Below are positions 5,536-19,529 of a stretch of DNA of 32,394 nt, piece by piece. Under the pieces are notes generated by a model. It saw nothing but the letters and a program-made list of their open reading frames with translations, did not search any database and was not told the DNA's origin. A program made the translations under genes and the position numbers. The DNA is from a virus: positions 1 through 32,394 of the IMG/VR virus record IMGVR_UViG_3300037234_000335; one strand, written 5' to 3'. Numbering within the stretch: position 1 is the first letter of the stretch; each line of letters starts with the position of its first letter.

Positions 5536-5578
5536 AAGTAGCTCCTGTGTAATGGGGCGGTGCCCCACGTGGCCCACC

Positions 5579-5609
5579 AGTATACCACGGCACCCGGGGG
5601 GTCTGTCAA
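5579..5609 (-). promoter_or_regulatory. Sigma-70-type promoter P1 (19-base spacer, extended -10)
   Basis: Minus-strand TTGACA (5604-5609), 19 bases, TATACT (5579-5584) preceded by TG-G. The spacer begins GACCCCCCGGGT, a G/C-rich dyad. ATAAA lies exactly 7 bases upstream of the -35 and overlaps the helicase stop. Predicted +1 is near 5572, and a TGGGGC/GCCCCA hairpin (5553-5567) lies at the very start of the transcript. It drives the 150-residue gene at 5083-5535. Confidence 0.85.
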
Positions 5610-5617
5610 GTACTGGT

Positions 5618-7027
5618 TTATGACAAAGCTTCCTCCACTATTAACGCAAGGTCCTTCTTCTTTCTTATAGCCTTAAGGATCATGCGATCCTGTGGTACAG
5701 CCATTTCAATGTCTTGGTACGTAACGTGATTGTGTTGTCCTTTTCTATGAGCGCGATCTTCGCTTTGGTACCTATCCTCGTATGAAAACGTGTTGGAATA
5801 GTAGATAACGTAAGTTGCAGCCGTCCAAGTCTGTCCATATCCTCCGACCGTCTGATTACTGACAATAAAACGTACCTGTGGGTTTTCTTGGAACGCTCGG
5901 CTATTCGCTTTACGTTCCTCTCCGCTTGTTGCGCCATAGAAAGGCACGATAGAGGTAGCCCCATATTCCTCAGTGATAACCTTGGTAATGTACTGAATCT
6001 CTGGTACAAACCTAGCCCATATAATAACTTTGGCTTCTTCCGGTAAGTCATCTATATACTCCATCATTGCATCGAGTTTCGGATTCTTCCCTAGTATGGG
6101 TTTCGTGTGATATTCACCGTCTTCTTCATATGGGAACGTTCCCCCTATAACTTGCTGGTATCTTAGCATTCGCTCCAGGACTGTTGACACCGTAATCTCG
6201 TCTAACCCATCAATCATGGTAAATTCATCGGTCAACTGTTTCATAACTCGCTTTTGCTCGTCAGATTGCTGGACGATAATTGGCCCCGGACGAACCTTGT
6301 CTGGTAAGTCAAGACATTCGTCCTTGGTTATGTAGTCAACATAGGGTTTGACTTTTTCGAATAGGTGTTCCTGGAACTGGTAGCCCAGCACCTGCTTACC
6401 TTGAAAACCCCCCATCACACAGTATTTGTTCCTAAACACGAAGAAATTTTTACATCCAATTATCCCCCTGTTCAAGAAGAGGAATTGCCCGAACAAATCC
6501 TCCAAACCCTGTGTGACGGGAGTTCCGGTCAGCAGGAGCCGGTATTCTGCCCAACCACCCACTTTCACAACAGTCTGTGAACGGGCGGCCTTCCAGTTCT
6601 TGATGCGTGAGCTTTCATCTACCACACACATGAACTTATGAAATCGTTGAAAATACTCTAGCTGTTGGACCGATTGACCATTCCTGATCGATAGCGATTC
6701 AACTCCAACTATGAAGACTTTTAGTTCATCACGCTTTTCACGTATCCAAATAGAAGGTTTATCCCCAGATTCGTAAATCCAGGTACTGTAGCTTATGGGA
6801 CAGAACTTTTCAAGTTCATCCTCCCATATGTTTTTAATTGGGGTGGGGCAGATCACAACAAGAGCGTTTATTTGACCCGCTCCGTAACGTGCTGCAGCTA
6901 AATTTATAGCAGTAAACGTTTTTCCTGTTCCCATTTCGTGAAACAGGGCATACTCGTTCTTATTCCAGGCCCTCCGCAAGGCCACCAACTGGTGGCCCAT
7001 TGGAGGTTGCTTAAACTCGAAGGCCAT
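5618..7027 (-). CDS. SNF2-type (SF2) DNA helicase/translocase
   Basis: 469 residues with a full set of SF2/SNF2 motifs: GHQ (11-13, Q-like), motif I HEMGTGKT (30-37), Ia ICPTPIKNIW (59-68), motif II DESS (137-140, in place of DEAH), motif III LTGTPVTQGLEDLFG (166-180), motif IV KVIIWARF (333-340), and motif VI QSEDRAHRKGQ (421-431) with Arg425 and Arg428 as candidate arginine fingers. The family moves along double-stranded DNA using ATP. In phages it sits in replication or recombination modules, where it may help origin opening, fork restart or removal of host proteins. Its ATG overlaps the stop of the paralog gene upstream (TGATG), and its stop lies 8 bases before promoter P1. Confidence 0.95.
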   Translation of the reverse strand: MAFEFKQPPMGHQLVALRRAWNKNEYALFHEMGTGKTFTAINLAAARYGAGQINALVVICPTPIKNIWEDELEKFCPISYSTWIYESGDKPSIWIREKRDELKVFIVGVESLSIRNGQSVQQLEYFQRFHKFMCVVDESSRIKNWKAARSQTVVKVGGWAEYRLLLTGTPVTQGLEDLFGQFLFLNRGIIGCKNFFVFRNKYCVMGGFQGKQVLGYQFQEHLFEKVKPYVDYITKDECLDLPDKVRPGPIIVQQSDEQKRVMKQLTDEFTMIDGLDEITVSTVLERMLRYQQVIGGTFPYEEDGEYHTKPILGKNPKLDAMMEYIDDLPEEAKVIIWARFVPEIQYITKVITEEYGATSIVPFYGATSGEERKANSRAFQENPQVRFIVSNQTVGGYGQTWTAATYVIYYSNTFSYEDRYQSEDRAHRKGQHNHVTYQDIEMAVPQDRMILKAIRKKKDLALIVEEALS

Positions 7028-7488
7028 CAGGCAGCTTTAGACTTACCTTTTCCTTCTTCTGCCTTGGCTTTCGCCGCTGCTTTGGCTTCGGCTTCTTTTG
7101 CCTTAGCCGCTTTAGCGGTTGCGCGTTTGTCAGCCGCTTCACGAGGCTTGTCACACGCGACTTGCAGGAGTTTCAGGCCATTCGCGATGCTCTTGTCCTT
7201 CTCGCGGGCCTTATCCTGCTTGGCGATAGCGCCACGAATCCGGTTGCCCAGGTTCATGCGCTGCATCCCCACGTTTAAGTGACCGTACTTTGTTTGCAGT
7301 TCCTTGGCCGAAACGTCGGTCAATTCTGCTGCAACTCGGTAGGTTTCCTCAAGCGTGAACCCATCAAGCGACTCTGCAACTTGGTCCTTACAACGCATAG
7401 TGCGTTTGCCGCTACCACTTACGCCTTTAACGTAAGTTTCGAGGTTAGGTTTTACCTTTACCTCTTTTACTGCTTCTTTGTCAGCCAT
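7027..7488 (-). CDS. NxGxxRMNxGNxIRG-family protein, copy A, with Lys/Ala-rich tail
   Basis: 153 residues. The core (about 18-90) runs from LETY through LEETYRVAAELTDVSAKEL to NVGMQRMNLGNRIRGA, and is clearly paralogous to the gene at 12526-12933. The last ~40 residues are a Lys/Ala/Glu repeat ending EEGKGKSKAA, like histone-H1-type tails that bind nucleic acid. The ATG at 7488 has AAGGAGAAACC upstream. It is the first gene after promoter P2 and overlaps the helicase start. I know this signature only as an unassigned phage protein; DNA binding is an inference from charge and neighbours. Confidence 0.87.
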   Translation of the reverse strand: MADKEAVKEVKVKPNLETYVKGVSGSGKRTMRCKDQVAESLDGFTLEETYRVAAELTDVSAKELQTKYGHLNVGMQRMNLGNRIRGAIAKQDKAREKDKSIANGLKLLQVACDKPREAADKRATAKAAKAKEAEAKAAAKAKAEEGKGKSKAA

Positions 7489-7508
7489 TGGTTTCTCCTT
7501 CTGGCGTT

Positions 7509-7539
7509 AAAAAATGGGGCGGCAGTATGGCCCGCCCCA
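7509..7539 (-). terminator. Hairpin plus T6 just downstream of promoter P2
   Basis: On the minus strand TGGGGCGG, a 9-base loop, then CCGCCCCA, directly followed by six T. It is a well-formed intrinsic terminator for transcripts coming from the DUF3102-like gene (stop at 7587). It starts only about 2 bases after the predicted +1 of P2 (near 7541), so every P2 transcript also carries it at its 5' end. It could be an attenuator, a 5'-end stabiliser, or both. Confidence 0.7.
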
Positions 7540-7547
7540 CGTACACC

Positions 7548-7578
7548 AGTATAGCACAGCACCCATGGGTGCTGTCAA
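7548..7578 (-). promoter_or_regulatory. Sigma-70-type promoter P2 with a perfect 20-bp palindrome
   Basis: Minus-strand TTGACA (7573-7578), 19 bases, TATACT (7548-7553) with extended TG-C. ACAGCACCCATGGGTGCTGT (7556-7575) is a perfect palindrome that starts within the -35 and fills most of the spacer. ATAAA lies 7 bases upstream of the -35. It drives the copy-A paralog and the SNF2 helicase. The palindrome is a natural operator candidate. Confidence 0.87.
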
Positions 7579-7586
7579 GCCCCTGT

Positions 7587-8369
7587 TTATGAGCGAGTGT
7601 TCCAGTTTTTAAACTCCTTGTAAACTGCGCTATACGATGTTGTGACCACATGTTCCTCATGGTCATTTTCTGCTGCTTCTACCCATTCTGTCCTTATTCC
7701 AAGCAGCGTATCTGGGTGGCATGGGCATTGGGGATCTGGGTCCATTCCCAGGATTACAAGATGCCCCTCAATTCCCTTAATTCCCTGCTCCACTACTTGC
7801 TGGATTCGTCGGGTCAGACCCAACTGCACCAGCGCGTTTATAGGAGTGTTGGGCGCGTCCATTTGGACGTGCTTGAGGCTACCACTCATCTTTAGGGCCT
7901 TCTTACTTGTGCCCTTGGTTTTCTTAACTTGCTCCCGTGTTTCCACCATTGTTGGTGGGTCTCCTGACTCAATACGTGCTTCAACCCATTCGATATCCTT
8001 CTGTTCAGCGAGTATCAGTTCTTGTAGCACTGAATAATTCGCTCCATCGATGAGTTGAGGCGCGTCATGAAATCGCTCAGCTACCTTCATCAGGTAATGA
8101 GCGTGCTGTTTCGATTGAACGAGCGTATTGTCCTTGCGCCACTTACCAAACGCCTGATCCTCGATGAACATAGCCCGGGCTTCAAGAAGGAGTTTCCCTA
8201 CCTTGATTTTGCCCCGGGCTACGTGTTTCACCGTGGCGTCTATGGTTTTATTGATATCTTTGGCCAAAGCCTCTAATTGGGTAAGGCCGCTTGCATCAAT
8301 ACCGTGGTGCCATTTAGTCACGCTCGTCTTCATCGGTTCTAGCGATCCTGCGGGTTTTGTGCTTGTCAT
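7587..8369 (-). CDS. DUF3102-like phage protein, possible DNA-binding/ParB-like
   Basis: 260 residues. The segment from about 33 to 100 (LAKDINKTIDATVKHVARG, KLLLEARAMF, FGKWRKDN, HYLMKVAERF) resembles the DUF3102 domain found in phages and plasmids, helical and sometimes linked to DNA binding. A Lys-rich stretch (KKTKGTSKKALK, about 148-159) and a C-terminal region with CPCHPDTLLGIRTEW follow. The start at 8369 has GGAG 9 bases upstream; an internal ATG (residue 13) is possible. The first ~18 codons overlap a small membrane-protein frame. The stop codon is part of the ATAAA element of promoter P2. The domain call is by eye and moderate. Confidence 0.85.
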   Translation of the reverse strand: MTSTKPAGSLEPMKTSVTKWHHGIDASGLTQLEALAKDINKTIDATVKHVARGKIKVGKLLLEARAMFIEDQAFGKWRKDNTLVQSKQHAHYLMKVAERFHDAPQLIDGANYSVLQELILAEQKDIEWVEARIESGDPPTMVETREQVKKTKGTSKKALKMSGSLKHVQMDAPNTPINALVQLGLTRRIQQVVEQGIKGIEGHLVILGMDPDPQCPCHPDTLLGIRTEWVEAAENDHEEHVVTTSYSAVYKEFKNWNTRS

Positions 8370-8430
8370 ATAGACTCGCTCCGTAACCGATTAACGAGAA
8401 AAATAGAAATAGTGCAAAGAAACCTAGCAC
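8314..8430 (-). CDS. Possible 38-residue single-pass membrane protein
   Basis: GTG start at 8430 with GGGGA 4 bases upstream (an adjacent GTG at 8433 is also possible). The product is one strongly hydrophobic segment (LGFFALFLFFSLIGYG, about 3-18) followed by a charged tail with KHKTRR and ending DEDERD, giving an N-out or N-in single-pass topology. It fills the otherwise empty 91-base gap between two genes and overlaps the next gene by 56 bases in another frame. Small single-span phage proteins can be holins, inhibitors or exclusion proteins; none can be assigned here. Confidence 0.45.
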   Translation of the reverse strand: MLGFFALFLFFSLIGYGASLYDKHKTRRIARTDEDERD

Positions 8431-8460
8431 CACTTCCCCAAGTTCTATCAGAGTTTCAAT

Positions 8461-8661
8461 TTACCTCACCCCCTCTTCATTAAGGAACACAGCGTCCTCG
8501 ATTTGCTGGATCAAGGATTCTGCGTTCGTAACGTGGGCACCGCCCACACGATTCAGGTTAAGACGTATCACCTTCACCTGCTTGTATTTATCAGGCTCGC
8601 GCCGAATGACGATTACCTCATAACCGTCAATCGGCGCTGCCAGCGGGGTTTCTCCGCTCAT
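8461..8661 (-). CDS. Small phage protein, function unknown
   Basis: 66 residues, beginning MSGETPLAAPIDGYEVIVIRR. It alternates beta-like stretches (YEVIVIRR, QVKVIRLNLNRVGG) with a helical end (NAESLIQQIEDAVFL). The start overlaps the previous stop as ATGA, so it is translationally coupled to 8658-9059. No signal, membrane or metal motif. Family not recognised. Confidence 0.8.
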   Translation of the reverse strand: MSGETPLAAPIDGYEVIVIRREPDKYKQVKVIRLNLNRVGGAHVTNAESLIQQIEDAVFLNEEGVR

Positions 8662-9059
8662 TCACAAACTACCTCGTAAAGGTCGACTTCCCGGGTCTCA
8701 GTGCCGACTTTGATTCGGGTACACTTACTCGACGAGAAGTAGAGCCAAAATCTGGCATCTTCTGTCGTGTGTTCCCAATGACAACTGAATGACGGATCGG
8801 GTTTGTCGGTTGGGCGATCTGTGGGTTCGTAGCCCAACTTGCGAAAGGCTGAGAAGATCGCGTTTAGCGTGTGCCTGTCTCCCGTGATTGAGAGGTCAAC
8901 ACACTGGCCGCACAGCGTTGCCCGTTGGATTTCTATCTTGTTCAATCCACTAGCAACCCTGCCTATTTCAGCCTTGTTGGAATGATACCAACTGGCTGTT
9001 TTGGTCAGGGTTTCTTGCTCCCTTACCAATTCTTCCTTCATTTGCTGTATGAACATCAT
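8658..9059 (-). CDS. Phage protein with N-terminal coiled coil, function unknown
   Basis: 133 residues from the first of two adjacent ATGs (9059, 9056), both close to CACAGGAGC; a longer frame to 9098 lacks a binding site. Residues 1-35 are a charged helix (IQQMKEELVREQETL). Later there is a CGQC pair (about 52-55) and FRKLGYEPTDRPTDKPDPSF. The CxxC could be redox-active or metal-binding, but there is no second pair. Overlaps the next gene by ATGA. Confidence 0.8.
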   Translation of the reverse strand: MMFIQQMKEELVREQETLTKTASWYHSNKAEIGRVASGLNKIEIQRATLCGQCVDLSITGDRHTLNAIFSAFRKLGYEPTDRPTDKPDPSFSCHWEHTTEDARFWLYFSSSKCTRIKVGTETREVDLYEVVCE

Positions 9060-9116
9060 AAGCTCCTGTGTGGGATGATTCCCAGGTTGGCCCCTCATTG
9101 AAGGGACAACCAGCGA

Positions 9117-9299
9117 TCACACTTTCTTGTAGACGTTCAGGCCGATCATGATTTCATCGGCCCCCGGGACTCTTGCGTTGCCCCGTGTTGTAGCGATTAC
9201 CTGTGATTTTTGGGATTTGCTAAGTCCCAGATTCTTGTTGAGGTTCACCGTAATTGTGAGGATTCCCTCTCTTACTGTCATTTCGCAGTTTTCTGGCAT
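9117..9299 (-). CDS. Small conserved phage/bacterial protein, function unknown
   Basis: 60 residues from the ATG at 9299 (MPENCEMTV), preceded by AAGGAGAAGG; the longer frame to 9350 would start inside promoter P3. The pattern GILTITVNLNKNLGLSKSQKS, here broken as GILTITVNL and NKNLGLSKSQKS, then VIATTRGNARVPG and IGLNVYKK matches a recurrent small all-beta-looking family in phages and bacteria whose members keep LSKSGKS-VIATT-GN-VPG-GLNVYR. It is the first gene after P3. No function is known to me. Confidence 0.85.
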   Translation of the reverse strand: MPENCEMTVREGILTITVNLNKNLGLSKSQKSQVIATTRGNARVPGADEIMIGLNVYKKV

Positions 9300-9338
9300 G
9301 TTACCTTCTCCTTCCCCGGACCCCCCGGGGCAGCCCCT

Positions 9339-9367
9339 AGTGTAGCACACGGGGCCGCTCCCGTCAA
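9339..9367 (-). promoter_or_regulatory. Sigma-70-type promoter P3 (17-base spacer)
   Basis: Minus-strand TTGACG (9362-9367), 17 bases, TACACT (9339-9344) with extended TG-C. The dyad ACGGG...CCCGT begins in the -35. ATAAA lies 7 bases upstream, inside a CTAGTTT/AAACTAG stem (9371-9391). It is the weakest of the set by sequence. The leader is G/C-rich (9313-9338). It drives the cluster 9299 to 7587. Confidence 0.75.
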
Positions 9368-9387
9368 GTCCTAGTTTATCACTAAAA

Positions 9388-9546
9388 CTAGAGCCACGCC
9401 TCGTAATCGGGGTGTGGTTCCAGTCGAGTTACTACGATCTCCTTGATCTCAGTTTGCTCCATGATTTGTGTAACTCTATTGAAGTAATCCTTGTCTGCGG
9501 AGACGAGTTTTACCTCGCCTCCGACTGTTACGACCCAAACAACCAC
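9388..9546 (-). CDS. 52-residue phage protein, function unknown
   Basis: GTG start at 9546, one base after the TGA of the upstream gene and with AGGAGA 5 bases before it, so coupled translation is likely. The product begins VVVWVVTVGGEVKLVSAD and continues DYFNRVTQIMEQTEIKEIV, ending PHPDYEAWL. Beta-alpha-beta character, no membrane or metal motif. It is the last gene of the P4 operon; its stop lies inside the stem-loop before P3. Confidence 0.75.
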   Translation of the reverse strand: MVVWVVTVGGEVKLVSADKDYFNRVTQIMEQTEIKEIVVTRLEPHPDYEAWL

Positions 9547-9547
9547 A

Positions 9548-9805
9548 TCATTCTCCTATGTAATTTTGGTCTATGAACCCTCTGATTGTCTCCAGGGTTT
9601 CCGCTACTTCTGCCATGTATTCCTCATGAAACTTAAGCTCAAAGTTCCTGAGGTCCCGTTTTGTGCTTATTAACCCATCTAGCTGGGCGTCTAGTGCTTC
9701 CACTATGATCGCCAGTTCATGGCTTTTAAGCTCGCTGTAAGTGCGTCCGTCCGGGATTGCCCCTTCCAGAACGCACAAGACAACGTGCGTCTCTTCATTA
9801 CTCAT
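9548..9805 (-). CDS. Small helical phage protein, function unknown
   Basis: 85 residues, MSNEETHVVLCVLEGAIP then a long helical part (SHELAIIVEALDAQLDGLI, FHEEYMAEVAETLETIRGF) likely to form a coiled coil. Shine-Dalgarno AGGAGCC precedes the ATG at 9805. It overlaps nothing but is spaced 12 bases from its upstream neighbour. Function not recognised. Confidence 0.82.
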   Translation of the reverse strand: MSNEETHVVLCVLEGAIPDGRTYSELKSHELAIIVEALDAQLDGLISTKRDLRNFELKFHEEYMAEVAETLETIRGFIDQNYIGE

Positions 9806-9817
9806 TCTTGGCTCCTG

Positions 9818-10123
9818 TTACTTGATTCCGTAGAATCTCCTGATTTCACTGATTATGTGCTCTTCCGTTTCTTGCGCCCACGGTTCGTCTTCCGGCACAA
9901 GCCACTCTTCCACGTCTTTATCGGTCTGTGGTTGCATCCCTTCCTGCACAAAATGTGCCCAATCCTTGGTTGTGTAGTCTTCCCGCATTGCGTCCGCTAT
10001 TTGATAAGCTACGAACCAATGCGCCTCCTTTTCGTAATCTCGCTTCCCCTCGGGTGGGTCTTCCATCCCCTCAGTTTCTCGCTCGATTGCGGCGGCCAAA
10101 CTAGCCGTGTTGATAATTCCCAT
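9818..10123 (-). CDS. Acidic small phage protein, function unknown
   Basis: 101 residues, rich in Glu and Asp (ETEGMEDPPEGKRDYEKE; EEWLVPEDEPWAQETEEH). Contains several Trp and ends EIRRFYGIK. The ATG at 10123 follows CAGGAGCAAGAAG and lies inside the end of the preceding gene (23-base overlap). Acidic early phage proteins of this size are often DNA mimics or inhibitors of host enzymes, but nothing specific supports that here. Confidence 0.82.
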   Translation of the reverse strand: MGIINTASLAAAIERETEGMEDPPEGKRDYEKEAHWFVAYQIADAMREDYTTKDWAHFVQEGMQPQTDKDVEEWLVPEDEPWAQETEEHIISEIRRFYGIK

Positions 10124-10283
10124 CTTCTTGCTCCTGCATTGCCTTACGGTGTTGTATCCGCTTTACGCGGCGTTCGTGCCGCGCTTGCGCTGTAATGATC
10201 TTACGGCTCAAATGCGGATTCGCTTCGAGGAATTCGCTTATCTCCTCGTTCGTCGTCGTTACACTGATTGGTAGTGTATTCAT
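10101..10283 (-). CDS. Basic small phage protein, function unknown
   Basis: 60 residues with a very basic middle (ITAQARHERRVKRIQHRKAM, residues 30-49) after an acidic helix (NEEISEFLEANPHL). A nucleic-acid-binding helix is plausible. CACAGGAGC precedes the ATG at 10283. Overlaps the next gene by 23 bases in another frame. Confidence 0.75.
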   Translation of the reverse strand: MNTLPISVTTTNEEISEFLEANPHLSRKIITAQARHERRVKRIQHRKAMQEQEDGNYQHG

Positions 10284-10309
10284 GATTGCTCCTGTGTTGT
10301 GCTTCTATG

Positions 10310-10510
10310 TTACGGCGTCCAAATTGCAAACAACGCCCCACCGATTACCCCGTCTTTGTACGGTTCTGACGGGATTCTCTCTTCTGCTTCTCTTGCAATT
10401 TCTAACACGTAATAGGACAGGTCTTGTTGGCTTGCTTTGCCTGTCCCCATGCTTTCAAACGTTGCACCGCGTTCTACTGCGGCTTCTACGAGTTGTGTTA
10501 CGCCTGGCAT
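10310..10510 (-). CDS. Small phage protein, function unknown
   Basis: 66 residues, MPGVTQLVEAAVERGATFES then a helical stretch (QQDLSYYVLEIAREAEERI) and a short hydrophobic end (GVIGGALFAIW). AAGGAG lies 6 bases upstream of the ATG at 10510. The start sits one base after the preceding stop. The C-terminal hydrophobic patch is too short for a clear membrane span. Confidence 0.78.
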   Translation of the reverse strand: MPGVTQLVEAAVERGATFESMGTGKASQQDLSYYVLEIAREAEERIPSEPYKDGVIGGALFAIWTP

Positions 10511-10511
10511 T

Positions 10512-10718
10512 TCATTCTCCTTCGAAAGCAGGGTGGTCTTCCACGTCTATTGCTTCGCGGTCGGCCATCAAAGCCATCATAATTTCACCAGTTCTCATGT
10601 TGGTCACGATTCTGTAACCACTTATCCGGCCAGCGCAATCATCCGAATCCGCTACGATTTCGGTTTCAGGCGGCAAGCCCAACCTCTTCAGGTCTTCTGC
10701 CATTTCTAGCACGTTCAT
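10512..10718 (-). CDS. Small phage protein, function unknown
   Basis: 68 residues, MNVLEMAEDLKRLGLPPETE followed by IVADSDDCAGRISGYRIV and an acidic end (DVEDHPAFEGE). ACAGGAG precedes the ATG at 10718. Beta-sheet-like middle with one Cys. Part of the tightly packed P4 operon. Not recognised. Confidence 0.78.
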   Translation of the reverse strand: MNVLEMAEDLKRLGLPPETEIVADSDDCAGRISGYRIVTNMRTGEIMMALMADREAIDVEDHPAFEGE

Positions 10719-10732
10719 TGCTATTTCTCCTG

Positions 10733-10909
10733 TTATTGAATTTCCAGTTCATCAACATCGATAAAGTGGATTCCTGTGTCCCTTAGTTCCTGTGCGCGTT
10801 CCATCGCGTCCTTCTCTGTGTTATAAACTTCCACGCTGGAAAGCTCTCCGTTGTAAACCGCAACCACCGTGTAAACACGGTCTGTTGCTTCGTCGCTGTA
10901 TTCACTCAT
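10733..10909 (-). CDS. 58-residue phage protein, function unknown
   Basis: MSEYSDEATDRVYTVVAVYN, then GELSSVEVYNTEKDAMERAQ and an acidic end with HFIDVDELEIQ. The beta-beta-alpha-beta-like order (a short strand pair, then a helix carrying EKDAMERAQEL) is typical of tiny phage proteins. AAGTAGGAAG precedes the ATG at 10909, and that ATG overlaps the previous TGA (ATGA). It fills an otherwise unexplained 190-base gap in the operon. Confidence 0.75.
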   Translation of the reverse strand: MSEYSDEATDRVYTVVAVYNGELSSVEVYNTEKDAMERAQELRDTGIHFIDVDELEIQ

Positions 10910-11070
10910 CTTCCTACTTCCTCTAACAGCTTATCAAGTTCGATTGTGTCGTCTTTGGTCCAGTTCTCGAAGCTTTCGTCCCCGAGCCACTCTTCCATCG
11001 ATAACACCCTCTCCATTTCGATCGCAAGCGCTAAAAGCGCCCGGACGAATCTCAGTTGCTCTTCGTTCAT
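10906..11070 (-). CDS. 54-residue helical phage protein, function unknown
   Basis: MNEEQLRFVRALLALAIEME followed by RVLSMEEWLGDESFENW and a charged helical end (IELDKLLEEVGR). Almost entirely helical and acidic. AAGGAAAACCC precedes the ATG at 11070. Both ends overlap neighbours as ATGA, so it sits in a chain of coupled genes. Not recognised. Confidence 0.75.
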   Translation of the reverse strand: MNEEQLRFVRALLALAIEMERVLSMEEWLGDESFENWTKDDTIELDKLLEEVGR

Positions 11071-11393
11071 GGGTTTTCCTTGTTGTGCTTCCGGATTGCT
11101 TCGTCGCTGATTACGGCGTCTATTCCCGCCGCCGCGTCGAAATAGGCTCGAACGAGCCGCTTACAAACTTCCGGGTCTGGCCCTCTTACTTGCATTGCCA
11201 GGTGGTTTCGGTCACTTCTGAATTCAGTAACCGTGTAATTGAAAAACTGCGACCAATATCTTACTGGGCCGCCCCAGGTTGCGGATTCTTCGATATCTTT
11301 CGCGGAGAACTGTGTTATTGCCTCCCCGCCGTCGATTTCGTCGATTCCGAACGTTACCATTTCTGGCTCGCTCCTTCTTGACGTTGTGTTCAC
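11067..11393 (-). CDS. First gene of the P4 operon, function unknown
   Basis: 108 residues from a GTG at 11393 with GAGGA 8 bases upstream. An ATG at residue 12 (MVTFGIDEIDGG) with AAGGAG 11 bases upstream is an alternative. The body has WGGPVRYWSQFFNYTVTEF and a C-terminal helix (CKRLVRAYFDAAAGIDAVI), ending in a basic HNKENP. No recognised domain. Overlaps the next gene by ATGA. Confidence 0.78.
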   Translation of the reverse strand: MNTTSRRSEPEMVTFGIDEIDGGEAITQFSAKDIEESATWGGPVRYWSQFFNYTVTEFRSDRNHLAMQVRGPDPEVCKRLVRAYFDAAAGIDAVISDEAIRKHNKENP

Positions 11394-11494
11394 GTTATTT
11401 CCTCTTCCTGTGTCGCCCCCGATTTCCCCCGGGGGTTTGGGGTTCCGGCCCTTCTGTGTTTATCGCATTCTGCGCGGGGCCGGGGCGCGCCCCC

Positions 11495-11523
11495 AGTATA
11501 ACACAGCGGGGGGCCGCTGTCAA
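11495..11523 (-). promoter_or_regulatory. Sigma-70-type promoter P4 (17-base spacer, dyad in spacer)
   Basis: Minus-strand TTGACA (11518-11523), 17 bases, TATACT (11495-11500) with extended TG-T. The dyad ACAGCGG / CCGCTGT (11503-11520) overlaps the -35. ATAAA lies 7 bases upstream. A GGGGCGCGCCCC palindrome (11482-11493) covers the predicted +1 near 11488. It drives nine small genes (11393 down to 9388). Confidence 0.85.
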
Positions 11524-11668
11524 GCCCCCCTTTATCACGCCCAGAACACTTCCAGTGATAAACCCGTGTTGCCCGGTCCTTCTGGGTGTTGGTTCGTGAA
11601 CCAAGCCGGGGTGAACCCCCCTCCCCTCAATTCTGTGTTGCCCCCCGCGAAAGCCAGGAAAAGGACCG

Positions 11669-11746
11669 GAAGGACCGGCAAGACCGTCGTTCCGTGTTTC
11701 GGCCCCCGTCGTTCGGGGTTGGTCTCCCCGGTCTTCCTGGTCCTTC
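11669..11746. repeat. Interrupted inverted repeat (18-base arms, 16 matches)
   Basis: GAAGGACCGGCAAGACCG (11669-11686) pairs with CGGTCTTCCTGGTCCTTC (11729-11746) at 16 of 18 positions, around a 42-base loop that itself contains CCCCCGTCGTTCGGGG. It could form a long stem in DNA or RNA. Confidence 0.7.
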
Positions 11747-11957
11747 TCTCTGGAAGAGGAGAGAAGAGAGAAAAAAGGGGGATGTATTCGCGAATACCCT
11801 CCCCCGGTCGAGTGGTTCAGGGGCGGCCCGAACCGGTCCCAGGACCGGTAACTCGTCGCAGCGGTGGGTTTAGGGACTCGTTCACCCGCGCTTCCGTCCG
11901 CGACCAGCGGAGCGCCTTCCCCGCGCCCTTGGTTCGCTCCGGGACCTGTTCCTTGCC

Positions 11958-12086
11958 GGGGAACGCGTTTTGGGCGTGGGAATAGATTCGCTTTCTGGGG
12001 AACGTGTTCTTACAACAGAATAAATTCGCTTAGAGATAGGTTCGCTTCCTGGTGAACGTGTTCCCACCAAGGATAAATCCGCTTCC
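11958..12086. repeat. Three imperfect ~36-base direct repeats (iteron-like)
   Basis: Copies at 11958-11993, 11997-12031 and 12051-12086 share GGGGAACG-GTT (GGTGAACG in the third) near the left end and ATTCGCTT or ATCCGCTT near the right end; the central part varies. A partial fourth (AAACGCGTTT then TCCGCTTCC) follows to about 12108. Left ends are spaced 39 and 54 bases. GAACGCGTTT, GAACGTGTTC and AAACGCGTTT are (near-)palindromic cores. Confidence 0.7.
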
Positions 12087-12214
12087 AAACGCGTTTAGGT
12101 CCGCTTCCGGGTTCCCGGAACTCGGGCACAGTCCCTCCTTCCCTCACCGTCATTCGGGATTCCGATAATGCGGCCTAGCCGATGTGATTAGTTCCTCTGT
12201 GGCCCTGAATAAGT

Positions 12215-12232
12215 GGGGCCGTCCTTGGCCCC
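12215..12232 (-). terminator. G/C hairpin after the 73-residue gene
   Basis: GGGGCC-GTCCTT-GGCCCC, 14 bases beyond the stop of 12246-12467 on the minus strand. No T run follows, so it may be a weak terminator or an mRNA-end stabiliser. The same 18 bases recur at 12496-12513. Confidence 0.5.
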
Positions 12233-12245
12233 GGTGGCGCTGTCC

Positions 12246-12467
12246 TTAGCTCATTGCTTTCTTGATGGCCCCCATGATGCTGATTGTTGTTGCGTAACCA
12301 GCTAATTCATCGGATTCTTGCTCGGTCAGGCCAATCCCGAGACAGAAGTCCCTGAAGTTGGTCTGTGCCTTGGAACTCCACTTGGTCTGTGGAATCAATT
12401 CCAGGCCATCGTCGTGGGGTCTAACCTCAACCCCATGCCCTGATAGGGCGTCGTATCTTAAGAACAT
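12246..12467 (-). CDS. Small phage protein, function unknown
   Basis: 73 residues, MFLRYDALSGHGVEVRPHDD then LELIPQTKWSSKAQTNFRDF and an end rich in small helices (LTEQESDELAGYATTISIM). CACAGGAG lies 6 bases upstream of the ATG at 12467. It follows the copy-B paralog in the same direction, with identical hairpins on either side (12215-12232, 12496-12513). Not recognised. Confidence 0.78.
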   Translation of the reverse strand: MFLRYDALSGHGVEVRPHDDGLELIPQTKWSSKAQTNFRDFCLGIGLTEQESDELAGYATTISIMGAIKKAMS

Positions 12468-12495
12468 GTTGTACTCCTGTGTTGATAGAAAGGGC

Positions 12496-12513
12496 GGGGC
12501 CGTCCTTGGCCCC
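12496..12513 (-). repeat. Second copy of the GGGGCC-GTCCTT-GGCCCC hairpin
   Basis: Identical to 12215-12232 and lying between the copy-B paralog stop (12526) and the next start (12467). It probably acts on mRNA stability or partial termination so that the two genes are expressed at different levels. Confidence 0.65.
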
Positions 12514-12525
12514 TTGTCTGCGCTC

Positions 12526-12933
12526 CTAGCTAGCCGTGTTGATCTCGGCTGATGCGGCCTTGAGGGCCGTCTCTAGGTCCTGAATCGTCTTATCACGGTT
12601 CAGGCAGCCTCGGATGATGTTCCCTGCGTTCATCCTCTTGGCTCCGTTGTTCCTCGCGGCGTACCGCTCGGTCAACGTCCCTGGCTCCAGTCCCCGCAGC
12701 TTCTCTGCTGCTGCCATCACCACTTCTGGTGAGGCTCCCCGGAGCTTCAGCGCGGCTGCGTCGCCGTTGTCCATGCTGAGGCTTCCGTTGGGGGCCTGGT
12801 AAGTCTCGTACCGTCCTTTGTACGCCCGGAGCTGCTCTGACTTGCTCCTCTTGGGTTTTCCGTCGACTTCCGTCTTCGGTCCTTGGGGCTGTGGGCCGCC
12901 CTCTTCCTTCGCCTTGCTTCGCTTCGTGGCCAT
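12526..12933 (-). CDS. NxGxxRMNxGNxIRG-family protein, copy B
   Basis: 135 residues from the ATG at 12933 (MATKRSKAKEEGG), chosen because GAGGAGG lies 5 bases upstream. The frame stays open to 13347, but that extension is Pro/Gly/Arg low-complexity sequence from GC-rich DNA. A basic N-terminal tail is followed by a core from YETY through DAAALKLRGASPEVV to NNGAKRMNAGNIIRGCL, aligning along its length with the gene at 7027-7488. Copy B carries its Lys/Arg-rich extension at the N-terminus; copy A carries one at the C-terminus. Function unknown; nucleic-acid binding is plausible. Confidence 0.85.
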   Translation of the reverse strand: MATKRSKAKEEGGPQPQGPKTEVDGKPKRSKSEQLRAYKGRYETYQAPNGSLSMDNGDAAALKLRGASPEVVMAAAEKLRGLEPGTLTERYAARNNGAKRMNAGNIIRGCLNRDKTIQDLETALKAASAEINTAS

Positions 12934-13432
12934 CGTGGCCTCCTCTGCTTCGCTTCGCTCCGCTTCGGGCCGCTCCTTCGGCCTCGGCCCGCCCCGGCGC
13001 GCTGGCCGGGGGGCCGGGCTTCCGGGCGGTGTCGGCGGGGCGCGGGGCGGGGCCGCCGCCGACCCCCCAAGGAAAACACAGGCGCGGCCCCGGCGCAACC
13101 CCCCCGGCAAACGCGGCCCCAGAGGCCCCGGGGGACGGGCACCCGGCCCGGCAAGGGGCACGCCGGGGGGCCGCCCGGCCCCGCCCGCCGCGCAAGCCGG
13201 GGGGGGGCCGGGGGAGAAAACAAGGAACCGCGCACGCGGACAAACAAGGAACGAGCGCCCGACCCCCGGGCACCCCCCGGGGCGCGGCCCGCGTTTAGCG
13301 TTATAGGGGGTTGCGCGGGGACTCGATGCCTCCTTAAAGCGCGCCATTGCCGATTCCTTTTTTTCCGCGTGCGCGGACGCGTATTACAGTGTCCCTATAT
13401 GGGTCGCTGCTTCGCTGTTCCCTTGCCAGGAC
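12934..13432. other. Very GC-rich divergent intergenic region beside terS
   Basis: About 500 bases with no credible gene, where transcription diverges. By hand count only 26 of 180 bases in 13021-13200 are A or T (about 86% GC), against roughly even composition in neighbouring coding DNA. Long C and G runs dominate. ACAAGGAAC is directly repeated at 13220 and 13244, and TCCGCG-TG-CGCGGA is a short palindrome near 13365. A TATAAC box (minus strand, 13300-13305) without a good -35 is the only promoter hint for copy B. Its place next to the terminase genes makes a packaging site or genome end possible, but nothing proves it. Confidence 0.6.
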
Positions 13433-13463
13433 TTGACAGACCCCCCGGGGAGCGTGGTATACT
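13433..13463 (+). promoter_or_regulatory. Sigma-70-type promoter P5 for packaging genes
   Basis: TTGACA (13433-13438), 19 bases, TATACT (13458-13463) with extended TG-G. The spacer starts GACCCCCCGGGG. CTTGCCAGG upstream is shared with P6; the ATAAA element of the minus-strand promoters is absent. With a standard 6-base discriminator the +1 is 13470, which is the A of an ATG. Confidence 0.87.
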
Positions 13464-13469
13464 TCCCGA

Positions 13470-13658
13470 ATGAGAGAGTCTACTTTCAGAGAGCTTCCAA
13501 AGTTGACCATTGTTGAAGCAGCCGAGCCTTTTAATCTTGAGGAACGGACCCACTTGCTTAACGAAAGGATGAGGGAAATTGGCCGAGCAAGAACTCGCAT
13601 TGACGGAAGAATTATCGCAGCAGAAAAGCGAACTACGGTCCGCCGAACAGGAACTTAA
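13470..13658 (+). CDS. Possible leaderless 62-residue protein upstream of terS
   Basis: The ATG coincides with the predicted +1 of P5, so it would have to be translated leaderless. The product (MRESTFRELPKLTIVEAAEP, then FNLEERTHLLNERMREIGRA and a basic end) looks protein-like in its first 40 residues. It overlaps terS by 80 bases in another frame, and its translation would bring ribosomes to the TTG start of terS. Alternative: only a short coding leader whose real role is coupling. Confidence 0.5.
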   Translation: MRESTFRELPKLTIVEAAEPFNLEERTHLLNERMREIGRARTRIDGRIIAAEKRTTVRRTGT

Positions 13659-14112
13659 TCCTCAAGAGCGGCTATTCTGCTATGACTACCTTGTTGATTT
13701 TAACCATCGCAGGGCAGCTACTAGTGTTGGCCGCTCTGCAGATGCAGGTAAAAAACTTCTTAGAAACCCAAAAGTTGCTCGCTTTATTAAGCTACTTAGT
13801 AATGAGCTTGCTACTGAGTCTCTTATATCTGCTGATATGGTCCAATACGAGTTGCTCCATGAGTATCTCCCAAGAGCAAAGGGCGAGACAGAAATCAATG
13901 GAGTCGACCGGGACGGTATTGGGTGGTCTGGAAAGGTCACAAATATGGCCGCATACGGTAAGGGGATCGATTTAATGGCCCGTCACAGTGGTTTCATGGC
14001 CGCTGAAGTAGTCAAGGGCGGTCTAACCATCAACATCAATCATAAGGCTATGGGCATCACTGTGGAAGGGGAGTATAGCGAGCAGGACGATGGCACTGAA
14101 CCTTCCGAATGA
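13579..14112 (+). CDS. terS: Terminase small subunit
   Basis: 177 residues. It recognises phage DNA and loads the large terminase. The core LNPQERLFCYDYLVDF, then RRAATSVGRSADAGKKLLRN and PKVARFI (about 25-70) is the helix-turn-helix region typical of small terminases (LTPQERLFV-EYL-D-N...KLLRNP-V). The C-terminus is acidic (EYSEQDDGTEPSE). The start must be the TTG at 13579, because the frame has a stop at 13570 and the next Met is far inside the domain; GAGGG lies 5 bases upstream. Overlaps terL by 23 bases. Confidence 0.88.
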   Translation: MAEQELALTEELSQQKSELRSAEQELNPQERLFCYDYLVDFNHRRAATSVGRSADAGKKLLRNPKVARFIKLLSNELATESLISADMVQYELLHEYLPRAKGETEINGVDRDGIGWSGKVTNMAAYGKGIDLMARHSGFMAAEVVKGGLTININHKAMGITVEGEYSEQDDGTEPSE

Positions 14113-15517
14113 ATGGGCAGCACGTGATTACCAGGCTCCCCTTTTTCGGCACATGTTTGAGGGGGGTCTTGAACGTAAACGTGGCTGTGCCGTATGGCAT
14201 CGGCGTGGTGGAAAGGACTCCTGTTGCCTTCAATTATCGGCAGTTTCCTCCCAAATGCGCGTGGGAACAATTTGGCACATGTTGCCAACTCTCAAACAGG
14301 GCCGGAGGGTAATATGGGATGGTATAGACCGAGAAGGTCGAAAGATGATAGATCAGGCGTTTCCCAAGGAAATGCGCGATCTGGCATCCCCGATCAACAA
14401 CTCGGATATGCAGATTCGCTTCCGGAACGGGAGCATTTACCAGGTAGTTGGAAGTGACAACTATGATAGCCTCGTCGGCACTAACCCAGTTGGTGTTATA
14501 TTCTCGGAGTTCGCGGTCGCGGACCCAAAGGCTTGGGATTATATTCGCCCGATCTTGGCGGAGAACGGTGGGTGGGCACTCTTTATATACACCCCTAGAG
14601 GCAAGAATCACGGGAAGAAGCTATATGATATGGCTAAGAGTAATCCTAACTGGTTCTGTAGCCTGCTTACAGTCGACGACACCTTCCGGCCCGATGGAAC
14701 TCATGTTATTGGACCGGACATTATTGCACAAGAACGGGTTGAGGGTATGGCTGAGGAGAAGATTCTTCAGGAGTATTTTTGCTCGTTTGAAGCGGGTATG
14801 GAAGGAGCATTCTATACTCTGGAACTCAACCTAGCGGAAGATGAAGGCCGGATCGGAGATTTCCCACACGATCCGATGAAACCTTGTCAAACATGGTGGG
14901 ATATAGGATTTAGAGATGCGACAGCCATTATTGTTACACAGCGCGGCGACGATGGCAAGCCGGTTATCATCGACTACCTCGAAGCTCGGAACAAGGCTCT
15001 TGACGAATGGATTAGAGACGTCCGCTCGCTTCCCTACGATTATGACGAGCATCAAGGACCCCACGATCTTGAGAACACCGATTGGACGACAGGAAAGACA
15101 AGGCGAGAATTCGCGCTTGGTCTCAACTTTACGTTCGAGATTGTACCGAAACTCCCGGTTCAGGATGGGATTGACGCAACAAGAGCGATCATTCGGTGCG
15201 CGAGGTTCAATGAAGCGAAAGTTGGCAGGCTCTTAGATGGATTGTACTCTTATAGAAGGGAGTATGACGATCGGTTACAGATGTTCCGAGATAAACCACT
15301 CCACGATTGGGCAAGTCACCCGGCAGACGCCATGCGATACTTGTCCGTGGGGTGGAGAGATTATATCGGGGGACAAAAATATACCAGTCAACGATATAAC
15401 GTTAAACCAGCACTAAATTCACATGCCAGTCGCCAGAAGCCAAATTACCAAGATATGTATCCTTGGATGTTCAATGACGATGGAAGCCTAAGAAATGGAC
15501 GGCAAAGAAATTCGTAG
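14090..15517 (+). CDS. terL: Terminase large subunit
   Basis: 475 residues. The packaging motor pumps DNA into the prohead and cuts it. ATPase: Walker A HRRGGKDS (37-44), Walker B VIFSE (136-140, with Ser in place of the first acid, common in this group) and motif III YTPRG (167-171). RNase H-like nuclease: WWDIGFRDATAI (269-280, Asp271 and Asp276) and the final acid in SHPADAMRY (Asp413). Length and order fit T7-like and P22-like large terminases. AGGA precedes the ATG at 14090; it overlaps terS by 23 and the portal by 23 bases. Confidence 0.97.
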   Translation: MALNLPNEWAARDYQAPLFRHMFEGGLERKRGCAVWHRRGGKDSCCLQLSAVSSQMRVGTIWHMLPTLKQGRRVIWDGIDREGRKMIDQAFPKEMRDLASPINNSDMQIRFRNGSIYQVVGSDNYDSLVGTNPVGVIFSEFAVADPKAWDYIRPILAENGGWALFIYTPRGKNHGKKLYDMAKSNPNWFCSLLTVDDTFRPDGTHVIGPDIIAQERVEGMAEEKILQEYFCSFEAGMEGAFYTLELNLAEDEGRIGDFPHDPMKPCQTWWDIGFRDATAIIVTQRGDDGKPVIIDYLEARNKALDEWIRDVRSLPYDYDEHQGPHDLENTDWTTGKTRREFALGLNFTFEIVPKLPVQDGIDATRAIIRCARFNEAKVGRLLDGLYSYRREYDDRLQMFRDKPLHDWASHPADAMRYLSVGWRDYIGGQKYTSQRYNVKPALNSHASRQKPNYQDMYPWMFNDDGSLRNGRQRNS

Positions 15518-17165
15518 ACGTTATGATTCCCTTGTATCCCAACGAAAAACTGTTGAGGATGTTTGGGAAGTTATCAATCAACTGGTGGTCCCATTTCGTG
15601 GTGATTTCTTCCGCGACATTACCTCCGAGCATGCAGTTACGTGGAGAGATAATCGTGAGATTTTTGACTCAACGGCTGTGGACGCTGCTAATACTCTTGC
15701 TGCTAGTATACATGGTAGTCTTACTAGCCCCGCTATTCGTTGGTTCGAATTAGCGTACCGCAACACAGAACTAAATAGTCTCAAGGAACCCCGGGCATGG
15801 CTCGAAAATGCTGCCAGTATATGTTATACGGCGCTCCAGGATTCTAATTTCAACCTCGAAGCCAATGAAACATACCTTGACCTAGTTACATATGGCACTT
15901 CGATGATTATCGAGGAGGTTGAAGAGAGAAACGGACGATTCCGGAACCTGATTTTTCAATCGGTCCCGGTCGAGGAAATGTGGTTTGAGCAAGATTGGCG
16001 GGGTCAAGCACATCGGGCATACCGTCGTTATATGTGGACCCCGGTTCAGATAGTTACCAAATTCGGTGAGGAGGGTGTTCCTGAGGATATTCTCAAGAAA
16101 TCCAAAACAACGCAGGGCATGGACGTCAAAGAAAAAGTAGTAATGGTCATCTTCCCGCGTGACGATAAGAAAGATGCCGATGTTTCGAATGTTCTATCAC
16201 CTAAAGAACGCCCGTGGGGGATGAAATATATCCTCCATAAGAGCGCCTATGAACTCGGGGACGAGGGCGGATATTACGAAATGCCCGCTTTTATACCCCG
16301 ATGGCGTAAGACTTCCAAGTCGATGTGGGGCCATGGCCCAGCAATGATAGCCCTGCCGGATATACTGACAATCAATAGTCTCGTGGAGCTTATTCTTAAA
16401 GCAACAGAGAAGGTTGTCGACCCTCCGACGAAAGTAACAGAGCGGGGTCTTCTGTCCGACCTCGACTTGGAACCTGCCGGTCTAACCGTCGTACGCACGA
16501 TGGATTCAATGGAACCCTACGAGTCAGGTGCCCGGTTCGATGTAAGTCAGCTCCAACGTGAGGAGCTTAAACAATCGATCCGAAGCATCTTCTACGTAGA
16601 CCAGTTGGAGCTTAAGGAATCTCCGGCAATGACCGCGACGGAGGTTCAAACTCGTTATGAACTTATGCAGCGACTTCTCGGGCCGACTCTTGGAAGATTG
16701 CAGTCGGATTATCTTGACCCGCTTATTCAGAGAACATTTAACATTCTCTATCGAGCCGATCAATTCGGTGAGCCACCCGGAGTTGTTTTCGAAGGCTCTA
16801 ACGAGCTTGACATTATCTACACAGGACCGTTGGTACGTGCACAACGAGCTGATATTGCCCAAGGCGTGACTCGGTGGGTCGCTTCACTTGCTGAATTAGG
16901 TGAAGTTGCCCCTGATGTTTTAGACGTCCCGGATTGGGATGCTATCGCTAAAGAACTCGGATCGCTGGAAGGAGTCCCGGCCAAATTGATGCATTCTGAT
17001 ACTGAGATTAATCAGGTTCGTAGGGAGCGTCAAGAGGCCCAGGCTGCTCAGCAACAGGCCATACAAGCACAAGAACAAGGCGCAGGTATGGAGGCAATGG
17101 GTAAAGGAAGGACTGCATTAGCGGAGGTACCACCAGTTGAGCCAGGAGCAGAAGAAGCCGCGTAG
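15495..17165 (+). CDS. Portal (head-to-tail connector, T7 gp8 type)
   Basis: 556 residues, the usual length for the Bacteriophage head-to-tail connecting protein family. It forms the ring at one capsid vertex through which DNA enters and leaves. Typical segments: RRYDSLVSQRKTVEDVWEVI near the N-terminus, DSTAVDAANTLAASIHGSL (58-76) and SPAMTATEVQTRYELMQRLL (about 376-395), the conserved MTATEV helix. The C-terminus is a Gln/Ala-rich tail (AQAAQQQAIQAQEQ) and may be flexible inside the head. It follows terL directly. Confidence 0.96.
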   Translation: MDGKEIRRRYDSLVSQRKTVEDVWEVINQLVVPFRGDFFRDITSEHAVTWRDNREIFDSTAVDAANTLAASIHGSLTSPAIRWFELAYRNTELNSLKEPRAWLENAASICYTALQDSNFNLEANETYLDLVTYGTSMIIEEVEERNGRFRNLIFQSVPVEEMWFEQDWRGQAHRAYRRYMWTPVQIVTKFGEEGVPEDILKKSKTTQGMDVKEKVVMVIFPRDDKKDADVSNVLSPKERPWGMKYILHKSAYELGDEGGYYEMPAFIPRWRKTSKSMWGHGPAMIALPDILTINSLVELILKATEKVVDPPTKVTERGLLSDLDLEPAGLTVVRTMDSMEPYESGARFDVSQLQREELKQSIRSIFYVDQLELKESPAMTATEVQTRYELMQRLLGPTLGRLQSDYLDPLIQRTFNILYRADQFGEPPGVVFEGSNELDIIYTGPLVRAQRADIAQGVTRWVASLAELGEVAPDVLDVPDWDAIAKELGSLEGVPAKLMHSDTEINQVRRERQEAQAAQQQAIQAQEQGAGMEAMGKGRTALAEVPPVEPGAEEAA

Positions 17166-17418
17166 TAAGAAACAGCAAGCGGTCGACAACGTAGTTAGTA
17201 AATCAGGATTTTTTTACCGTATATTCACTTCGCCAGATGGTAAAAAGGTCCTGGAAGCGCTGGAAGAGGAGTTCGATGCGGACGAAATCTTCACAGCCGG
17301 GGAACCCGATACCACGAGCTATAATCTTGGTAAACGGGATGTTATAGTATACATTCGTCAGATGATAAGGTTGAAAGAAAATGCCACCAGAGCCGAATTG
17401 GAAGGACAGTCTTCCTGA
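17137..17418 (+). CDS. Bbp19-like small protein between portal and scaffold
   Basis: 93 residues. The segment FFYRIFTSPDGKKVLEALEE (25-44) and GKRDVIVYIRQMIRL (65-79) resemble the small Bbp19-like proteins found beside the portal gene in BPP-1-type podoviruses; their role in head assembly is not settled. The start is TTG at 17137 with GCGGAGGT 9 bases upstream; no ATG or GTG start fits. Overlaps the portal end and the scaffold start in other frames. Confidence 0.78.
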   Translation: MSQEQKKPRSKKQQAVDNVVSKSGFFYRIFTSPDGKKVLEALEEEFDADEIFTAGEPDTTSYNLGKRDVIVYIRQMIRLKENATRAELEGQSS

Positions 17419-18196
17419 GGAAATAAGAGGTCATAAGACCCTAGCAGATGTTGAAGATGTTGGGGCATTGGCCAAACAGTTCATTGATGCTCAAGCGACA
17501 ATGGGAACATCGATTCGTATTCCCGGGCCAGATGCCGGGAACGAAGCATTAACGAGCTTTCACACAAAGCTCGCTGAAAAGGTGCCTGGGCTTATCCCAA
17601 CACCGGACCCAGATAATGCGGAGCAAATGAATGCCCTATATACCCGTATGGGACGTCCATCGGAGGCTATCGGGTACGAACACCCCGATGGCGTGGACCC
17701 AACGCAGATGGCGGATTTCGCTGATCTTGCCCATAGCTTAGGACTAACTAAGACCCAGTATAAGGGGATGCTCTCCTCGCTTGTGGAGAAAACCGCAAAG
17801 ACAGCGGAGACAACTACCGCTGAATTTGACGCGGCTACTCGCGCCCTTAAGCAGGAATGGGGCATCGTGTATGAGGATAATCTCCAATTGGTCCAGTCCG
17901 TGATGAAAGGAACAGGTGCACCTGCAGAATTCCTGGAAGCAGCAGCGGATAGTAAACTTCCAGCGGGTACGATCAAATGGCTCCATAACATAGGAAAGCA
18001 ATTGGGCAGCGAAGGCATAAATTTCCAGAAGGATGAATCGACAAGTCGACTCGCTCCTGCTGAGGCAAAGGCCCGGGTAGCTGAAATCATGGGCGATCGC
18101 GAAGGCCCTTATTGGGATGGAGCGCATCCTCAGCATAAGGAATATGTACAGCGTGTTGTTGACCTGAATAGGGCGGCAGCGGTTGGCGGCGGATAA
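17381..18196 (+). CDS. Scaffolding protein
   Basis: 271 residues. It guides capsid shell assembly and leaves before or during packaging. The beginning WKDSLPEEIRGHKTLADVED, then ALAKQFIDAQATMG and SIRIPGPDAGNEAL, then GLIPTPDPDNAEQMNALYTRMGRP (broken here as GLIPTPDPDN and MNALYTRMGRP) is characteristic of phage scaffold proteins placed just before the capsid. Helical middle and charged C-terminal region with a repeat of HPQHKEYVQRVVD near the end. The ATG at 17381 overlaps the previous gene by 38 bases. Confidence 0.9.
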   Translation: MPPEPNWKDSLPEEIRGHKTLADVEDVGALAKQFIDAQATMGTSIRIPGPDAGNEALTSFHTKLAEKVPGLIPTPDPDNAEQMNALYTRMGRPSEAIGYEHPDGVDPTQMADFADLAHSLGLTKTQYKGMLSSLVEKTAKTAETTTAEFDAATRALKQEWGIVYEDNLQLVQSVMKGTGAPAEFLEAAADSKLPAGTIKWLHNIGKQLGSEGINFQKDESTSRLAPAEAKARVAEIMGDREGPYWDGAHPQHKEYVQRVVDLNRAAAVGGG

Positions 18197-18443
18197 GTTC
18201 GAGTGCTGGCAATGCGGGGCCTGTTGCCGATTAGTTGGGTTCAAGGCCCCGGAGCTTGATCGTGGTGACAAAGCGTGTATCCACCTTACGGAGGATAACC
18301 TCTGCGAAATTTATGAGGACAGGCCAGATTTCTGTCGCCTCAATCCGAGCCGCGATCCGAAAGAGCAAACTGCGTGGTGTAAGCTCCAAGAAGCGAACTG
18401 GCCGGAATACGTCGAGCAATTAAAGAAACTTGCCAGGGGTTGA
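18183..18443 (+). CDS. CxxCxxCC zinc/iron-binding protein (YkgJ-like)
   Basis: 86 residues with eight Cys. CWQCGACC (8-15) is the CxxCxxCC motif, followed by Cys32 (ACIHL), Cys41 and Cys51 (LCEIYEDRPDFCRLNP) and Cys66. This is the pattern of the Zn/Fe-chelating YkgJ/UPF0153 family. It lies between scaffold and capsid, where it could be a metal-dependent chaperone or a passenger gene. The start is TTG (18183) with AGGGCGG upstream and overlaps the scaffold by 14 bases. Its stop TGA is part of the -35 of promoter P6. Confidence 0.85.
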   Translation: MAADKFECWQCGACCRLVGFKAPELDRGDKACIHLTEDNLCEIYEDRPDFCRLNPSRDPKEQTAWCKLQEANWPEYVEQLKKLARG

Positions 18444-18470
18444 CAGACCCCCCGGGTCGCGTGGTATACT
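18440..18470 (+). promoter_or_regulatory. Sigma-70-type promoter P6 for the capsid gene
   Basis: TTGACA (18440-18445), 19 bases, TATACT (18465-18470) with extended TG-G. The spacer begins with the dyad GACCC-CCC-GGGTC. The whole element and the nine bases before it (CTTGCCAGG) closely match P5. It overlaps the stop of the CxxCxxCC gene, giving the capsid its own strong transcript. Confidence 0.87.
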
Positions 18471-18476
18471 CGTTCG

Positions 18477-19503: not shown

Positions 19504-19529
19504 CCCGTACTTCTGGCGAAGTGTGAGTT

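Follow-up and report, generated by a model that had tools for sequence, protein, structure and literature searches.

How is transcription started in a phage whose genome carries several near-identical promoters, each with a palindrome at which a regulator might bind? This question arose from a virus record of 32,394 bases (IMGVR_UViG_3300037234_000335), analysed over its whole length and referred to here as the window, in which six promoters, P1 to P6, with a G/C-rich dyad in the spacer between the -35 and -10 hexamers had been predicted. Comparison with related phages revealed that they very probably form part of a conserved promoter set of the sigma-70 type with two arm classes, the spacer dyad being mostly a by-product. 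All six were found as predicted with respect to sequence, strand, coordinates, hexamers, TGn extension and spacer length, and each is accompanied by an upstream signal:

5579–5609, minus strand: P1, TTGACA, 19-base spacer, TATACT with TG; directly 3′ of the helicase gene and 5′ of a Pam3 gp33-like gene (5083–5577)
5617–5621, minus strand: ATAAA early-arm signal of P1
7548–7578, minus strand: P2, TTGACA, 19-base spacer, TATACT, with the 20-base-pair perfect palindrome ACAGCACCCATGGGTGCTGT; 5′ of g2 (7027–7488)
7586–7590, minus strand: ATAAA early-arm signal of P2
9339–9367, minus strand: P3, TTGACG, 17-base spacer, TACACT; early genes
9375–9379, minus strand: ATAAA early-arm signal of P3
11495–11523, minus strand: P4, TTGACA, 17-base spacer, TATACT, with the 18-base-pair dyad ACAGCGGCCCCCCGCTGT; early genes
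11531–11535, minus strand: ATAAA early-arm signal of P4
13422–13430, plus strand: CTTGCCAGG, late-arm upstream signal of P5
13433–13463, plus strand: P5, TTGACA, 19-base spacer, TATACT; packaging genes (g5, terminase)
18429–18437, plus strand: CTTGCCAGG, late-arm upstream signal of P6
18440–18470, plus strand: P6, TTGACA, 19-base spacer, TATACT; 5′ of the major capsid gene (18619–19503)

As described before, ATAAA stands exactly 7 bases before the -35 in all four minus-strand promoters. The signal attributed to the plus-strand copies, CTTGCCAGG, occurs just twice in the window, both strands taken together, namely at P5 and P6. Zero-mismatch scans with 17- and 19-spacer patterns returned exactly P1 to P6. 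The position-matrix search that had been suggested as a check was carried out with a matrix of the -35 and the TGTG-extended -10, trained on relatives alone with the window left out. The six sites ranked first in the window with scores of 19.1–28.2, followed by a next-best site at 9.1; among 30 Markov copies of the window used as control, the mean best score was 5.6 and one copy reached 17.3. Taken together, these results show that the family is not due to chance.

Searches with the helicase and the portal yielded 52 related loci, nearly all of which contain members of the family, and 28 records were mapped for junctions. A family promoter was present at the same junction in 11 of 11 genomes for P1, 13 of 14 for P2, 20 of 20 for P5 and 22 of 22 for P6, i.e. 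in 66 of 67 site-by-genome cases. These include the cultured phages VP5, phiVC8, ZP6 and K300, whose versions carry TGTGnTATAAT and an AAC-like upstream signal. Every copy is oriented into the gene it precedes. The elements, whose absence from equivalent sites of related phages would speak against the original prediction, are found at these sites, and a phage-wide promoter set of the host sigma-70 type is supported. A broad core-pattern scan of viral contigs gave mostly single matches among the matches listed, so that the bare core is not diagnostic.

Among cultured phages, VP2, VP5, phiVC8 and K300 of Vibrio and ZP6 of Alteromonas are the closest relatives, sharing about 50% protein identity; nucleotide matches to the window were not found in the phage collection. 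PurZ (2-aminoadenine synthase) is encoded in 9 related contigs and in both isolates tested (phiVC8, ZP6). It was not found in the 32-kb window, whose contig ends inside the primase gene beside the PurZ position of the relatives. Judging from PurZ in these relatives, the virus of the window likely has a Z genome, i.e. one containing 2-aminoadenine. The six sites very probably represent the window's portion of a conserved set of promoters that belongs to a clade of lytic podoviruses, kin of the Z-genome Vibrio and Alteromonas phages. Transcription of 2-aminoadenine phages by host polymerase seems little studied, as the papers found concern base synthesis. In cultivable relatives, the family offers a catalogue of promoters whose locations are fixed and whose arm-specific signals lend themselves to exchange. 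The available part of the phiVC8 publication (Virol J 2016, PMC4802629, Table 3) lists 15 single PromoterHunter predictions which are mostly unlike one another; two of these, promoters 1 (39373–39422) and 13 (38150–38200), belong to the present family, and neither a family nor an upstream signal nor arm classes are described there.

The hexamers lie near the consensus and a TG stands one base before the -10, as is characteristic of sigma-70 extended -10 promoters. The spacing is 17 bases in P3 and P4, 19 in P1, P2, P5 and P6, and 17, 18 or 19 at equivalent sites of relatives. No sigma-70 region 2 was detected in 12 records, and no T7-type RNA polymerase in the incomplete contig of the window or in its relatives, although a T7 positive control was recovered. 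Because of the consensus core and because neither a phage sigma factor nor a T7-type polymerase was found, we infer use of host sigma-70. Each transcription unit would start from its own promoter for the host enzyme, composed of a near-consensus -35, TGTGnTATACT and a G/C-rich spacer of 17–19 bases. Near-identical copies before each transcription unit resemble the promoter sets of phage-encoded RNA polymerases, but the sigma-70 consensus core, the variable spacer and the outcome of the polymerase search make it very improbable that the sites serve such an enzyme. The sigma-70 extended -10 promoters of polymerase-less lytic phages share TTGACA, TGn, TATACT or TATAAT, a spacing of about 17 and the placement of one promoter per unit; here, in contrast, an unusually complete consensus is seen in almost every copy, spacers of 78% G+C reach up to 19 bases, and two types of flanks exist.

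A small gene begins just past P5:

13470–13658, plus strand: g5, conserved open reading frame (ORF) of 62 amino acids, ATG 6 bases past the P5 -10

The g5 protein is conserved in relatives (MRES..FRNLPPLT); of 18 environmental genomes in which it has an MRES- or MRDS-like start, 13 place the ATG 6–9 bases past the -10. Since this distance is so short, the g5 mRNA is predicted to be leaderless, which we consider probable. By sequence position alone, the spacing between P5 and the start codon agrees with a transcript start 5–9 bases past the -10. In principle, G/C-rich palindromes that recur close to genome junctions could do other jobs, such as replication, packaging or recombination. That the sites are promoter-like repeats of this kind is hardly credible, however, as they always point into the downstream gene, conservation is highest in their hexamers, and a start codon stands at a fixed distance from P5.

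Members of the family precede two sets of genes. On the minus strand, the window encodes a primase (cut by the contig end), a family A DNA polymerase, a protein resembling single-stranded DNA-binding protein (SSB), Pam3 gp34- and gp33-like proteins, an SNF2 helicase and small genes; terminase, portal, scaffold-position, major capsid and tail genes are located on the plus strand. A comparison of 57 early with 38 late promoters supported the proposed arm-specific upstream signal. TAAA at -11 to -8 before the -35 was found in 40/57 early and 0/38 late promoters, and CTT upstream in 23/38 late and 0/57 early ones. The initial transcribed sequences differ likewise: of the five bases that directly follow the -10, at least 4 are G in 40 of the 57 early but 2 of the 38 late promoters, and an ATG-containing start in 26 late but 2 early promoters. 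The late class is flanked by CTTGCnAGG upstream and a CCCGGGAATG-like start. Spacers of at least 18 bases are also more frequent in the late arm (21/38 vs 11/57; p 0.0004, or p 0.0017 without the clade of the window), all p-values of this comparison being guides only, as the sequences are related by descent. Owing to these different flanking and start signals, the two arms are distinguishable.

The leftward (early, replication) and rightward (packaging, structural) arms would therefore combine a common core with different upstream signals at fixed distance and different initial transcribed sequences, through which their timing may be set. Most likely, the alpha subunit of the polymerase or a phage factor would make the contacts that tell them apart. 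The short A-tract TAAAC, which has a fixed position of about -47 to -43 relative to the expected start, resembles the proximal subsite of an UP element bound by the alpha-subunit C-terminal domain; it differs in comprising five bases only, within mixed-sequence flanks, and in being replaced by CTTGCnAGG in the late arm. Early-arm transcripts (e.g. 5534–5572 and 11440–11488, minus strand) have a predicted G-run start and often a G/C hairpin, with a mean folding z of about -1 against letter shuffles.

TAAA is missing from P0, the first leftward promoter in each of the relatives. A putative remnant, assigned by position and letters, was noted in the window:

13070–13098, minus strand: degenerate trace of P0, TTGCGC, 17-base spacer, TTTCCT with TGTG

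The surrounding region 12801–13300 adjoins divergent promoters, reaches 76% G+C and has a plus strand poor in A relative to T; the P0 of the relatives appears to lie within it, other letters having taken the place of A (TTGCGC..TGTGTTTTCCT).

The dyad had been regarded as a feature shared by all six promoters, which was not confirmed beyond chance. The perfect palindrome of P2 exceeds shuffles (p 0.001), as do the 7-base-pair arms of P4 (p 0.03), whereas shuffling the letters of P1, P3, P5 and P6 gives best stems of comparable length (p 0.20–0.60). Neither the size nor the centre of the dyads is constant, the latter ranging from +5.5 to +7.5 after the -35. Spacers contain 78% G+C compared with 55% in the flanks and are composed of a run of purines, one of C and one of G, from which short palindromes arise by themselves. 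In most copies the dyad is a by-product of this composition and not an operator; a tempting operator-like palindrome can thus come from base composition. In 17- and 18-base spacers the longest stems equal those of shuffles. Among the 17-base class (55–65 non-redundant spacers), letters that face each other about the axis defined by ACA in the -35 and by TGT did not covary (z 0.46, 65 promoters); over seven axes, one gave an uncorrected p of 0.006. For 17- and 18-base spacers, the idea that the dyad forms a covarying stem between the two hexamers was rejected, given the lack of covariation and of stem excess, and a dyad-binding regulator is not supported as a general feature.

The same site carries a 17-, 18- or 19-base spacer in sister phages, and spacer length goes along with sequence. 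TACC is present in 0 of 64 17-base, 10 of 26 18-base and 0 of 11 19-base spacers, and ACCCC early in the spacer in 10 of 11 19-base ones. The 19-base spacers of the window's clade have GACCCC(N)2GGG in common, the other long (18-base) spacers GTACC. The longest C-run averages 2.7, 3.8 and 5.4 bases in the 17-, 18- and 19-base classes. The idea that step twist offsets differences in spacer length was rejected, as the summed twist climbs from 608 over 640 to 671 degrees.

Several points weigh against a sigma-70-type set with a by-product dyad. The literature found gives no transcription start for these sites. Four of the six promoters may need help, since sigma-70 works poorly with a spacer of 19 bases; the long-spacer promoters may depend on their extended -10 or on a helper, and small early genes of unassigned role could encode a polymerase-binding factor. 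The 19-base class, eight non-redundant sequences from one clade, has a mean stem of 5.5 base pairs compared with 3.5 after shuffling of letters and 4.3 after shuffling of columns. Finally, under a typing devised post hoc, the long-spacer type is coherent within genomes in 20 of 21 pairs, where 11.5 would be expected (p 0.0017, or p 0.02 after collapsing the sister clade). In view of this coherence, a spacer-reading factor is possible for the long-spacer subset, which preserves a weaker form of the proposed regulator.

In its fullest form, this would make the promoters with 18–19-base spacers activator-dependent in a MerR-like manner: a factor of phage or host origin would bind GACCCC..GGG or GTACC, untwist the DNA and align the hexamers. 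In classical MerR promoters (mer, znt) the dyad follows right after the -35 with its centre about 8.5 bases on. The dyads of P1, P2, P5 and P6, at +7 to +7.5, lie within about 1 base of this position and thus nearer to MerR geometry than the remark in the original prediction that MerR dyads are more central had implied. These four promoters share with MerR-type ones the 19-base spacer and a dyad just past the -35, and the palindromic excess of 19-base spacers, the tie between length and sequence and the within-genome coherence fit as well. Nevertheless, we regard such an activator as unlikely. Unlike in MerR systems, spacer length and dyad vary at equivalent sites, where sister phages carry dyad-free 17-base spacers, and the -10 is TG-extended. 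A search of 12 phage records for the MerR family gave no match that passed the cut-off and one sub-threshold match, in ZP6; a regulator supplied by the host would be conceivable. Pfam scans of 10 larger window ORFs (E 0.001) and of 20 ORFs (E 1) revealed no family of DNA-binding regulators that passed its cut-off; a single match carried a regulator name, namely a sub-threshold one to a TetR C-terminal domain. Moreover, most dyads are compositional, and a genome-specific spacer signature across all promoters is absent (p 0.81). It is at the inconstant spacer that the comparison with MerR breaks down.

Alternatively, slippage in the C-tract could yield both spacer length and dyad: a C-run followed by G is palindromic and gains or loses 1–2 bases, which would be tolerated owing to the extended -10, which relaxes the demands on the -35. 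The growth of the C-run with length class and the site-by-site differences between sister phages agree with this explanation, but the GTACC type of the 18-base spacers, the within-genome coherence and the strong conservation of TTGACA are left unexplained, and we hold it for conceivable though somewhat doubtful.

With respect to possible helpers, two paralogous small proteins of phrog_8941, encoded by g2 (minus strand) and at about 12526–12936 (minus strand), share an MNxGNxIRG motif and are conserved across relatives. The first has a Lys/Ala-rich tail; one paralog is located in the first early gene and the other after P2. They are candidate DNA- or polymerase-binding factors. As the proposed regulator, g2 was set aside: its structure model (pLDDT 74, moderate confidence) gave no convincing structural match, and the fold of the paralogs was not recognised.

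Downstream of P6, a structured RNA precedes the capsid gene:

18471–18621, plus strand: P6 leader RNA with hairpins A, B and C and a hairpin pairing GCUCC with the capsid Shine-Dalgarno GGAGC
18485–18522, plus strand: hairpin A of the P6 leader, GG-GUA-GCY bulged stem-loop supported by covariation

Over 30 relatives, 93.3% of the pairing in its 42 base pairs is kept. Both sides of a pair had changed in 92 cells compared with 30 in shuffles, a signal that collapses when the alignment is slid; hairpin A alone accounts for 51 such changes against 15 in shuffles. The GG-GUA-GCUC/GGGU-CC internal loop recurs in the leader. Matches of the model lie exclusively ahead of the capsid gene, one in each genome but two in two distant contigs, and there is no match in Rfam. 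It also detects the leader in ZP6 and in the distant contigs L247, L258 and L241, and by eye the leader is partly recognisable in VP5, phiVC8 and K300. Scans of the non-Z Pelagibacter phage HTVC010P revealed neither promoter family nor leader RNA, a result that is uninformative on Z because this genome has 32% G+C. The covarying leader represents a new candidate regulatory RNA. Because GCUCC in the last hairpin is paired with the Shine-Dalgarno GGAGC, translational control of the capsid would be the natural reading, the GCUCC/GGAGC stem itself varying too little to be proven by covariation. One may speculate that Z-genome phages of this clade combine a two-class host sigma-70 set, long-spacer late promoters gated by a co-evolving spacer-reading factor and a capsid transcript controlled by its structured leader, although we deem this full combination improbable. 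Directly after the capsid gene, a strong terminator-like hairpin (19529–19552, plus strand; 10 base pairs, then TTTTT) was observed, with which P6, leader and capsid gene would form nearly a unit of their own.

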